Shown here in pieces: positions 31,144-45,237 of a DNA stretch of 64,000 nt (the first letter of the stretch is position 1; each line of letters begins with the position of its first letter). The position numbers and the translations under genes were made by a program. The notes under the pieces were generated by a model. The model made no database searches. It had not been told where the DNA came from and worked only from the letters and a program-made list of their open reading frames with translations. Source of the stretch: Verrucomicrobiaceae bacterium (GTDB lineage: Bacteria > Verrucomicrobiota > Verrucomicrobiia > Verrucomicrobiales > Akkermansiaceae). The stretch lies in assembly GCA_027491155.1 (NCBI GenBank), contig JAIXWR010000012.1:124001-188000 (forward strand). The letters run 5' to 3'.

Positions 31144-31191
31144 GGCACGGTTTGACCCACTAAGGTAGGGGCCGTTTGAAGCCCATCTTAA

Positions 31192-31282
31192 GCCCCAACG
31201 GGGCGGGAATTCCTCAGCCCGGGGCAAGGCTTCGCGCCGCCCCGGGTTCGTGGTCCCGACTCTAGGCGCCCTGAGGGGGCGC
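31192..31282. repeat. Triple-hairpin repeat element (family E)
   Basis: There are three hairpins in a row: GCCCC-AAC-GGGGC (31192-31204); CCCGGGGC/GCCCCGGG (31218-31225 and 31239-31246); GCGCCC/GGGCGC (31266-31271 and 31277-31282). The AAC triloop and the CCCGG hairpin recur, with other arm sequences, inside the large element at 43706-44050. It fills most of the gap between the dehydrogenase and a DUF1501 remnant. Confidence 0.65.
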
Positions 31283-31308
31283 GACAGGGCCGGCACAACG
31301 GGACGTCC

Positions 31309-31434
31309 TTTGCCACCCTCACCATCCTGCGCCTGCTCGGCTTCGACCACACCCGGCTCACCTACCGCTACAACGGCCGCGATTTCCGACTCACCGACAA
31401 CCACGGCGAAATCGTGAAAGGCATCATCGCGTAA
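31309..31434 (+). pseudogene. Remnant of a DUF1501 gene (last ~41 codons)
   Basis: The frame ending in TAA at 31432-31434 encodes '[20 protein letters not shown]' followed by '[13 protein letters not shown]'. This aligns with the C-terminus of the intact DUF1501 proteins in this window ('[20 protein letters not shown]', '[13 protein letters not shown]' at 39722). Nothing upstream in any frame continues the family; instead repeat element E ends at 31282. No usable start is present. It is a decayed fragment of a PSD1-DUF1501 pair that once stood next to the SMP-30-like gene. Confidence 0.8.
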
Positions 31435-41159: not shown

Positions 41160-43559
41160 TCAGGGCTTGGTCACGGTTTCATCCATGCACAGGATCGTGC
41201 TGGCGACGGTGGCGAGCGCCGCCAGCTCGGCGGCATCGAGCGATGGATCGGCCGGCGTGGCACCGGTGGCAAGCAGGGCCTTGGCGGCGGCGGGATCGTT
41301 CTGGAAATCCTCGAGGGCGCGGCGATAGGCGCGTTCGAGAATCGACTGCTCTTCCGCTCCGGGCGCGCGGGCGAGCACCGTGCGGAAGCCGAACGACAGG
41401 CGCGCGGCGGGATCGGCCGAGCTCCGCATCATCCGCGCGGCGAGGAAGCGGCTGGCCTCGACGTAGGTTTCGTCGTTCATCAGGTTGAGGGCCTGCAGCG
41501 GCGTGTTGCTGCGCGGCCGCTGGAGCGAGCACACCTCGCGGAAGGGCGTGCCGAAGGTCAGCATCGCCGGATGCGGCACGGAGCGTTTCCAGTAGGTGTA
41601 GAGGCTGCGCCGGTAGAGGCCCTCGCCCTTGTCCGGCACGTAGGTGTTCACTCCCCCTTGTGCGGTCACCTGCTCGTACAAGCCGGGCGGGTGGTAGGGC
41701 TTCACCGGCGGGCCGCCGATTTTCCTCACTAACAGACCGCTGGCGGCGAGGGCCTGGTCGCGGATGAACTCGCCCATCAGGCGGTTGCGGGGGCCGCGGG
41801 CATGCAGCCGGTTCTCCGGATCACGCTCCAACACCTCCGGCGCGATGCGCGCGTGCTGGCGATAGGTCGCGCTGGTGACCAGCATTTTCATCAGCCGCTT
41901 CACGTCCCAGCCCTGGGCGACGAAGTCCCGCGCCAGCCAATCGAGCAGCTCGGGATGCGAGGGAGACTCCCCCTGCGCGCCGAAGTCCTCGCTGGTTTTC
42001 ACGAGTCCGTAGCCGAAGACCTGCTGCCAATAGCGGTTCACCGTCACCCGCGCCGTCAGCGGGTTCTGCGGATCGACCAGCCATTTCGCGAGACCGAGAC
42101 GGTTGCGCGGAAGACCGGCAGCCATCGGCGGGAGCACGGCGGGGGTGGCGGGCTCGACCTGCTCGCCGGGGGCGTTGAAGGCGCCGCGCATCAGCACGAA
42201 GGTGGGCCGCGGCTTCTGCATTTCCTCCATGACCAGGGTGGTGGGGATCGTCCCTTCCGTGTCCTTGATCCGCTTCTTCAACGCAGCCACCTCGTCCTGC
42301 GCCTTCTTCAGAGCGGGAGGGTCGGCCGCCAGCGCCGCGAGCCGGCCTTCGGCTGCGGCCAGCTCCGTCCGGAGCCGCGCGATCTCCGCCTCGATCTCCG
42401 GCGCGGGAAGCTTGATCTGCGGCGGCGCGTTGACCCGGATCGGCGCCTTGTAGTTCCCGTCGCCGCGTTCGGGGACGCTGTTGAAGAAGGCCTTGAGCGA
42501 GTAGAAATCGCGGGCCGTGAGCGGATCGTATTTGTGATCGTGGCAGCGGCAGCAGTTCATCGTCAGCGCCAGCCAGACGGCGCCGGTGGTCTCCGCGCGG
42601 TCGGCGGCGTATTCGGCGAGGAATTCCTCGGGATCGATGGCCCCTTCCTCGTTCAGCATGTTGTTGCGGTTGAATCCGGTGGCGATGCGCTGCTCCAGCG
42701 TCGGATCCGGCAACAGGTCTCCGGCGAGTTGTTCGATGGTGAATTGGTCGAAGGGCAGGTTGCGGTTGAACGCGCCGACCACCCAATCGCGCCAGGCCCA
42801 GATCTCGCGGTCGCGGTCGACCTGGTAGCCGTTGGTGTCGGCGTAGCGGGCGCCATCCAGCCAGTCCACCGCCATGCGCTCGCCGTAGTGGGGCGATGCC
42901 AGCAAGCGGTCCACCAACTTTTCGTAGGCATCGGACGAGGCATCGGCGAGAAACGCATCCACCTCCTCCAAGGTCGGCGGCAGTCCGGTGAGATCGAGCG
43001 TCACCCGGCGGATCAGCGACTCCTTGGCGGCCTCGGGCGAGGGGGCGAGACCTTCTTTCTCAAGGCGGGCCAGCACGAAGCGATCGAGCTCAGCCCGCGG
43101 CCAGTCCGCTTGTTTCACCGCCGGCAACTCCTCCGCGGCGGGCGGCACGAAGGACCAGTGCTTTTCGTAGGGCGCGCCCTGTTCGATCCAACGTCGGAGG
43201 ATTTCCTTCTGCGCATCGGTGAGCTTCTTGTGGGTCTCCGGCGGCGGCATCACCTCGTCCTCATCGGTGCTGTGGATGCGCTTCCACAGCGCGGACTTGC
43301 CGACGTCGCCCGGCACGATGGCGATCGTGCCGTCGTTGTCCGCGGTCGCTCCCTCCCGGGTATCCAGGCGGAGGTCCGCTTCCCGGGTCTTGGGATCGAA
43401 GCCGTGGCAACTGAAGCAATTGTCGGAGAGGATCGGGCGGACGTCCCGGTTGTAGCTCGGCGCTTGGGCTGCCGCGGAGGAAATCACCAGCGCCATCGCG
43501 AGGAAGCGGAAAGGAAGCCGGGCGGGTTTCCGGAGTCCGGGTGGTGATGGAGGCTTCAT
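41160..43559 (-). CDS. PSCyt1/DUF1549/DUF1553 (PSD1) planctomycete-type cytochrome protein
   Basis: 799 residues from ATG 43559 with a signal peptide ending SSAAAQA. The heme site CFSCHG (48-53) sits in the PSCyt1 region '[20 protein letters not shown]'. DUF1549 (about 150-360) contains '[20 protein letters not shown]', and DUF1553 (about 525-790) contains '[20 protein letters not shown]'. A coiled segment (about 395-440) separates them. The function is unproven, with proposals around sulfated or complex polysaccharides. It is co-transcribed with DUF1501 immediately downstream. No LamG insert, unlike the second copy at 61046. Confidence 0.92.
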
Positions 43560-43705
43560 GGGATGACAGCGGGGCGGAACCTTGACAGGGAAACTCCCGT
43601 GGCAAGGGCCGCGAGCCAAGGAAGAAAGGCGACTTACCCGCTTCGGAGGCAGGGCTGCCTCGCTTCGAATTGCTTGATCGTGAACGAAGCATTCCCCAGC
43701 GGCAG

Positions 43706-44050
43706 GTAGTCCTGGCTTGAGCCCAGTGCCTTTAAGGATTGGAATTTCTGCGTCCCAACGGGACGACTGATCATAGCCCGGCACGGAGTGCCGGGTGGTC
43801 TCGCCCGCCATTCGGCGTCCCATCGGGACGCTTCATTGGGGGGCAGCTAGGATGACCCATCGGGGCCGCACTGATGACGACGGCCTATCCCCGCATGATC
43901 CGTCCCTGTAGGACGGCGAAATGGCGTTGGATCGACCCGGCACTCCGTGCCGGGCTCTTATGAATGGTCCCGTTGGGACCGAAACCACTTGAACGGAGAC
44001 GGCAGGGTCGCGCCCAATCCTTAGAGGCATCGGGCTGAAGCCGGGACTAC
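43706..44050. mobile_element. 345-bp element with terminal inverted repeats and nested hairpins (MITE-like, family E)
   Basis: The ends are GTAGTCCTGGCTTGAGCCC (43706-43724) and GGGCTGAAGCCGGGACTAC (44032-44050), inverted with 17 of 19 matches. A perfect subterminal pair follows: TAAGGATTGG (43733-43742) and CCAATCCTTA (44014-44023). Inside are hairpins CGTCCC-AAC-GGGACG (43751-43765), CCCGGCA/TGCCGGG (43777-43795), CGTCCC-ATC-GGGACG (43816-43830), CCGTCC/GGACGG (43900-43916), CCCGGCA/TGCCGGG (43936-43954) and GGTCCC-GTT-GGGACC (43966-43980). No ORF or clear target duplication. It fills most of the 586-base gap between the PSD1 gene start and deoB; the 146 bases before it show nothing clear. 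Confidence 0.65.
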
Positions 44051-44145
44051 GTACTTCCCGTTTCAAGCTCGCTCGCGAAAACCGAGTCTCGCGGCCACCG
44101 CAATTTCCGATTGGAAGCGGCGGCCGAACCGGTGAAATCTGGAGC

Positions 44146-45237
44146 ATGCGCGCGCTGGTGATCGTGTTGGATTCCGTGGGTTGCGGTGGGGCGAGGGATG
44201 CGGCGGCCTATGGCGACGAGGGCGCGGACACGCTCGGGCATCTCTTCGAGCGGGAAAGCCTGGAGCTGCCGAATCTCGCGCGGCTCGGGCTGTTGGAGGT
44301 TCTTGGCCGCGGCAACGTGGAGCTTTTTCCGGGCGCCGCCTTCGCCCGGATGAGCGAGGCCTCGGCGGGCAAGGACACGACGACCGGGCATTGGGAACTC
44401 GCGGGCTGCGTGCTGGAGGAGCCGTTCGATACCTTCGAGTCCTTTCCGCAGGATCTGCTCGACGAAATCGGCGGCCCATTCCTCGGGAACTGCGCGGCGT
44501 CGGGCACCGAGATCCTGGAACGACTCGGCGGGGAACATCTGCGCACCGGGTGGCCGATCGTTTACACCAGCGCGGACTCGGTTCTGCAAATCGCAGCACA
44601 CGAGGAGCGCTACGGCCTGAAGCAGCTCTACGCCCTCTGCCAGCGGGCCCGTGACGTTTTGGACCGGCGCGGGATCCGCATCGGCCGGGTGATTGCCCGG
44701 CCTTTCCTCGGGGACGATGCGGCGAGCTTCAAGCGGACCTCCAACCGCCACGACTACTCGCTGATGCCGCCGGAAACCGTGCTCAACCGCTTGCAGGCGG
44801 CGGGGGTGGAAATGATCGGCGTGGGGAAGATCTCCGACATCTTCTGCGGCTCCGGCATTTCGGAGTCGCACCCGACGAAATCGAACGCCGACGGGATGGC
44901 GGTGATTGAAAAACTGTGGGCGGAGGAACGGCCGCATCCACATCTGATCTTCGCGAACCTGGTCGATTTCGACATGCTTTACGGCCATCGCCGCGACCCG
45001 GCGGGCTATGCGGATTGCTTGCTGGAGTTCGATGCCTGGCTCGGTGGCTTTCTCCCGAAGGTGGGCGACGATTTCCTCCTGATCACCGCGGACCACGGCA
45101 ACGACCCGTATCATCCCGGCACCGACCACACGCGGGAGCAGGTGCCGCTGTTGACGGTGAATGCGCCGGTGAATCCGGTGGACTCGGCCGATTTCAGCCA
45201 GGTGGCGCAGCTGGTGGGGACGCATTTCGGGGTTTGA
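44146..45237 (+). CDS. deoB: Phosphopentomutase
   Basis: 363 residues, slightly shorter than the usual 390-410. The alkaline-phosphatase-superfamily metal site is clear: '[11 protein letters not shown]' with Asp9, '[12 protein letters not shown]' with the catalytic Thr of DTTTGHWE (about 78-85), '[15 protein letters not shown]' (about 273-287), '[10 protein letters not shown]' and '[12 protein letters not shown]'. It interconverts ribose-1- or deoxyribose-1-phosphate and the 5-phosphates in nucleoside salvage and is cytosolic. Its neighbours are unrelated, but a NupG-like permease gene lies 4 kb downstream. Confidence 0.95.

Follow-up and report, generated by a model that had tools for sequence, protein, structure and literature searches.

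The window analysed here is a stretch of 64,000 nucleotides from a Verrucomicrobiaceae bacterium (contig JAIXWR010000012.1 of assembly GCA_027491155.1, positions 124,001 to 188,000). At 43706-44050 it carries a composite element of 345 bp, recognisable by its inverted ends, its folding and its copies elsewhere in the same genome. The element is flanked by two divergent genes, one coding for a DUF1549/PSCyt protein (minus strand, likely start near 43559) and the other for a protein of the Metalloenzyme superfamily (plus strand, 44146) that we take to be a phosphopentomutase; given this position between divergent genes, a role as a terminator is unlikely here. An initial annotation, made from the letters of the window, had described 19-bp terminal inverted repeats matching at 17 of 19 bases. 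These are indeed present, and the pairing runs on inwards: the outer ends (43706-43742 and 44014-44050) are 86% complementary over 37 nt (32 of 37 positions, as against 23 of 37 in the best of 2000 dinucleotide shuffles). The perfect 10-bp subterminal pair reported there was recovered inside these 37-bp ends as TAAGGATTGG and CCAATCCTTA, and the internal hairpins resolve into the order H1, H2, H3, followed by the mirrored H3', H2' and H1', the inner arms mirroring each other, as had been noted, with 75% complementarity over 91 nt. Folding had been proposed as a check, and the DNA fold of the element lies far below that of shuffled sequences (-117.9 versus -65.1 +/- 4.2 kcal/mol in 200 shuffles, z -12.6), with the strand collapsing into one long hairpin. 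The statement that there is no ORF does not hold literally, in that two mechanically called ORFs overlap the element, one on the minus strand (43833-44147, 104 aa) and one (41160-43823) that reaches into it upstream of its own likely start near 43559; we take both overlaps to be due to chance.

Inside the outer ends is a core of 230 bp (43751-43980), consisting of two inverted arms of 89 nt with three hairpins each. The left arm (43751-43839, plus strand) carries, on that strand, H1 (43751-43765), H2 (43777-43795) and H3 (43815-43831), the last followed by TTCAT, and the right arm (43892-43980, minus strand) is its mirror, with H3' (43900-43916), H2' (43936-43954) and H1' (43966-43980) on the minus strand. 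The spacer in the middle (43840-43891) stands where a transposase-bearing unit elsewhere in the genome has its gene. Model R1, a covariance model built from 20 hand-picked arms, scores the left and right arms at 77.0 and 78.8 bits, both being among its seeds. The same model matches a separate single arm at 31191-31290 (plus strand, 56.5 bits, not a seed), which shares the design and belongs to another sequence family; part of the design had already been seen to recur at 31192-31282. Just past this arm, at about 31293-31434, is an open frame that when inspected by eye looks like the C-terminus of a DUF1501 protein, and is possibly a gene remnant.

Copies of the element occur at other sites in the same genome, on contigs C33 (95% identity over 333 nt), C26 (82% over 322 nt) and C13 (82% over 265 nt), with partial copies on C34 and C35, and their flanks differ where they were read. 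Across 57 genomes (own genome included), matches at 1e-5 were found in nine, and these mostly concern the inner part of the element. The phosphopentomutase-like gene next to it has a homologue in 15 of 18 genomes of the genus, and among the 11 relatives' loci read, flanking sequence is kept on both sides in one only (G006). There, about 348 bp are missing between two matched stretches, so the element is absent at the corresponding site, and about 1.2 kb of other sequence lies between that site and the relative's phosphopentomutase-like gene. The comparison of empty and filled sites suggested in the initial annotation has thus yielded a site lacking the element, with an exact junction that cannot be placed because the short spacer is too diverged. 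A single conserved site with the same flanks in all relatives, which that annotation had named as evidence against its reading, is not what we find, given the copies elsewhere and the relative without the element.

A Y1_Tnp gene (Pfam, 80.3 bits) is located outside the window at C3:65399-65848 of the same genome (G000), and is flanked on both sides by the arms of the core, inverted as they are in the core. Alignment of the element to this locus fits arm-to-arm homology in which the gene is replaced by the spacer, with the caveat of symmetry that each arm of the element also aligns to the opposite flank. The sequence relatives of the protein in the PDB include the ISHp608 transposase, and its motifs (DHVH, WQ, Y---Q) are those given for TnpAY1 subclass 1.2 in the available text of Quentin et al. 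2018 (PMC6006769). An alignment of 11 chosen proteins from the genus shows DH[IV]H, WQ and Y---Q--HH in about 148 aa, each H of the HH being present in at least 90% of rows; the exceptions are RHR in place of HH in the own-genome protein and DHAH in one row. Judged by its motifs, the transposase would fit subclass 1.2. A search for a Y1 or TnpA-REP partner, as initially proposed, has turned up a Y1 gene whose product is not a class-2 RAYT but an IS200-like protein of the subclass 1.2 type.

With model R1 at E 0.001, 41 arms are listed in this genome, a count for which the first pass scored 150 of 3292 candidates and which includes four model seeds. Among 15 pairs of close neighbours, 14 are arranged '+-' (one spans the transposase gene), one is '--' and none is '-+', and the cores measure 200-237 bp. 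The core is one member of a family of related copies. Inverted palindromic units, dispersed sites in multiple copies and units flanking a Y1 HUH transposase gene, three features of REPINs and REPtrons, are found here, and the suggestion of a composite of two inverted REP-type elements was essentially right for the core, whose inverted three-hairpin arms are also those flanking the Y1 gene. Three further loci of the genome (L056, L063 and L064) hold other Y1 transposase genes, flanked by separate repeat pairs in inverted or direct orientation; several families of Y1 genes and repeats coexist there.

The association between gene and arms extends beyond this genome. Within the genus, an inverted match between the two flanks was obtained at E 0.01 for 23 of 30 transposase loci, in a test run without a control and with two of the 23 consisting of one short hairpin only; the remaining seven have no inverted flanks at this threshold. 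A wider search gave at least 572 confirmed loci, the best 80 of which were analysed; their record titles name many phyla, metagenome bins make up the majority, and the window's genus is represented by at least one locus (L198). This genus takes in Haloferula sp. BvORR071, since a locus of G015 is identical to the stretch in that organism's record. Inverted flanks scoring at least 40 bits were found at 47 of the 71 loci with enough flank, as against 7 of 346 mismatched flank pairs, leaving 24 of 71 without them at this threshold. Direct matches of the same strength are also seen at 29 of these 71 loci, which is what one would expect of palindromic arms and arrays, and inverted flanks alone are therefore not specific. 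Among the best 150 of 301 matches to model R1, arms are present at 59 of the 80 loci, or at 55 of 76 once the loci that supplied seeds are set aside. None of 14 control loci has an arm, the fifteenth control being the window itself and left out. The arms next to the gene are also oriented: on the left flank 41 are '+' and 6 '-', on the right flank 39 are '-' and 6 '+', such that 80 of 92 have the expected orientation, with both sides so in 28 of the 80 loci. Neighbouring arms away from the gene are 16 '+-', 25 '-+', 6 '--' and 5 '++', and the wider loci hold clusters of alternating arms besides clean pairs. The arms differ in sequence among loci, keeping H1, a linker mostly ending in AGCC, H2 and H3. 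The gene and the arms are associated across phyla.

Might the family be a true IS200/IS605 insertion sequence together with internally deleted copies, of the kind known as PATEs, rather than a REPtron? NCBIfam names the protein an IS200/IS605 transposase (59.3 bits, cutoff 55), and the element looks like the transposase-bearing unit minus its gene. The arms are inverted, however, and the ends of IS200 are not. The transposase is moreover low-copy, with 1-8 matches in each of the 14 genus genomes (of 18) that have any, as expected of a REPtron gene that does not amplify itself. The near-identical copies within a genome that characterise IS200/IS605 are not found: in the loci fetched (30 of 48 matches, 28 of which gave a protein), within-genome copies are 39-73% identical over the 18 pairs compared. 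The part of PMC6006769 available gives 99.4% identity for subclass 1.1, and 36.2% for subclass 1.2. We consider the insertion-sequence explanation improbable.

A point absent from the initial annotation is that the arms match an Rfam family filed as an sRNA, RF01687 or Acido-Lenti-1 (PMC2864571, available in part). The match covers H1 and H2 (43751-43795, minus strand) at 40.2 bits, with a gathering score of 37, and is the single match in the window to reach an Rfam gathering score. In the genus, among the 150 RF01687 matches listed, close neighbours are in the inverted arrangement in 17 cases, the opposite one in none, '--' in four and '++' in two, and a listed RF01687 match is found no more than 300 bp away from 11 of 48 transposase matches, where 0.11 would be expected. 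Among 20 loci chosen from the 80, five have RF01687 at gathering score beside the gene, and in Terriglobus albidus it is found at that score on both sides of it. Across 387 genomes of the phylum, 58 have both RF01687 and the transposase, 30 RF01687 only, 35 the gene only and 264 neither (odds ratio 14.6), counts to be read with the reservation that the genomes are related and not independent, that few candidates were scored per genome and that stricter filters were used. Put differently, no transposase match at threshold was obtained in 30 of the 88 genomes with RF01687, nor an RF01687 match in 35 of the 93 that have the gene. In two genomes (G245 and G359), RF01687 was observed in arrays of direct orientation, with many spacings of about 69-124 bp.

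These data bear on whether the arms are a structured small RNA, as Rfam has it, and the element a group of RNA genes. Double changes are seen in 14 of 21 stem pairs of model R1, and 89% of cells are paired, versus 52.5% in the best slid control; pair types of the standard kind are no more numerous than in shuffles of the hand-picked arms (22 versus 21.1). Such covariation is what RNA stems would show, and it adds to the match above gathering score and to the genomes where RF01687 lacks a transposase match or stands in direct arrays, but hairpins of single-stranded DNA would covary equally. Arms that stand as inverted pairs and around a transposase, in copies at scattered sites and absent in one relative, are poorly explained by RNA genes, and we hold that explanation to be very unlikely. 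RF01687 would instead be mobile DNA, acting as DNA rather than as RNA, and our results suggest that this family merits re-examination as such. In the portion of the open-licence PMC literature that was searched and accessible, no link of RF01687 or of subclass 1.2 to REPs was found.

The sequence just 3' of the hairpins is informative in another way. Within an arm, the tail 3' of H1 resembles the tail 3' of H3 more than it does those at other loci (3.90 versus 3.23 when permuted, reached in 0 of 2000 permutations, 60 loci), and this likeness persists without the window and the seed loci (3.93 versus 3.24). The motifs beside H1 and H3 vary by locus, and are TCAT-like in the window. H1 and H3 may both serve for recognition, the motif common to their tails marking the cutting site or acting as a guide. 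GTAG or CGTC at the hairpin foot, as in known REPs, is not found in the core arms, the GTAG in the window being that of the outer-repeat tip; the core would work like a REPIN while standing outside the GTAG and CGTC families.

The outer repeats have a separate history, also missed by the earlier composite reading: they are a different repeat family with a RAYT of its own. The left repeat is on the plus strand and the right one on the minus strand, the latter starting with GTAGTCCCGGCTTCAGCC when reverse-complemented. Allowing one mismatch or none, the tip, GGAGCGCCGGCTTCAGCC (in the window's right-hand repeat GTAGTCCCGGCTTCAGCC), was located at 71 sites, versus one site for the reversed pattern, and 19 of 30 sites read by eye have an inverted partner within 90 nt. 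Copies of the tip flank a class-2 RAYT at C16:25034, and the tip is the REP of this second RAYT. Other interiors, too, have the full outer repeat at their border (C16 and C23), from which we read the element in the window as a REPIN nested in a REP-derived repeat and later copied whole. No outer repeat without an interior was found among 10 sites from a pattern search with part of the ends (at most three mismatches); core copies without the outer repeat do occur, on C35 and in the flanks of the transposase. A MITE was one option in the initial annotation. In its classical form, where 37-bp terminal inverted repeats would be recognised by the DDE transposase of an insertion sequence with the same ends, it would accord with near-identical copies on C3 and C33 in different flanks, but the tip is the REP of a Y1 RAYT, the outer repeat and the core each occur without the other's company, and no transposase was noticed by eye among the three longest ORFs at five 3-kb outer-repeat loci (out of 10 pattern sites). 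We hold this to be very unlikely, and the least probable of the explanations considered.

Two side observations concern what the outer repeat encloses. At C16:34506-34892, C23:351005 and C1:95011 it borders a different repeated interior, of GGAGTGCGATGGCATGACATCGCTTTGG type on C16 and C1, perhaps a third element family. At L160 (C20:156411) and L161 (C24:23012) it adjoins arms that by eye are like those of the genome's other gene of subclass 1.2 type. The outer repeat is possibly a landing pad for REPINs.

We return to the REPIN-like reading, and think it quite probable that the core is a non-autonomous mobile element moved by the resident Y1/HUH transposase, with one subfamily nested in the outer class-2 RAYT repeat and the composite duplicated. 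The core can be read as REPIN-like, and the REPtron type to which it would belong was not found described in the accessible part of the open-licence literature searched. Under this model, two inverted three-hairpin REP arms would remain after the gene of the transposase-bearing unit was replaced by a spacer of about 50 bp. A transposase acting on single strands would bind H1 and H3 with the short family-specific motif just 3' of each, cut at these motifs while the region is single-stranded, and copy the unit to new sites or move it there. The core of one subfamily would have come to lie inside an outer repeat with a class-2 RAYT REP tip, and the composite would itself have been duplicated. Binding, cutting and movement would be the work of the transposase at C3:65399-65848.

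We also favour, if only narrowly, a broader possibility, namely that this is an overlooked REPtron superfamily, in which TnpA of the subclass 1.2 type in many phyla would have arms of three hairpins, two of them accompanied by a matching recognition motif, and would seed genomes with REPINs. RF01687 would then be one cluster of arms and not an RNA, and REPINs from several families would use a second, REP-derived repeat as their landing pad, which would produce nested elements. Our results provide HUH proteins of a class reported to lack REPs with a partner and a likely role, and the hairpin with its neighbouring motif is a candidate recognition code that varies among families.

How does this system compare with those already described? 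Like REPINs and REPtrons (TnpAREP or RAYT with inverted REPs), it has inverted palindromes both scattered and around a low-copy Y1 gene, but there are three hairpins per arm, the cores are 200-237 bp long, the motif is locus-specific instead of GTAG, and the protein is of the IS200-like subclass 1.2 type, not class 2. It shares with TnpAY1 subclass 1.2, as far as the available text of PMC6006769 goes, the motifs DH[IV]H, WQ and Y---Q--HH, a length of about 150 aa and low, diverged copies; that subclass is listed there as 'REP: no' and mostly from Cyanobacteria and Bacteroidetes, whereas here arms flank the gene, and the record titles name Verrucomicrobia, Acidobacteria, Planctomycetes and further groups. 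The likeness to Acido-Lenti-1 is that the Rfam family covers H1 and H2 of the arm; unlike the sRNA filed from PMC2864571, in the part available, the match here belongs to an arm that is repeated and surrounds a transposase. In the same portion of PMC6006769, class 3 TnpAY1 of Planctomycetes and Acidobacteria likewise has multi-copy atypical hairpins around a Y1 gene, but with NHVH, a different Y motif and a CnGA foot. Finally, the TIRYTs and their TIR repeats (Di Nocera 2013, PMC3733652, in the part available) are Y1 genes with inverted flanking repeats, some recurring in the genome, and differ in that 20 of 26 belong to subclass 2.1 (PMC6006769) and some share the motif GGGGWSAS (PMC3733652).
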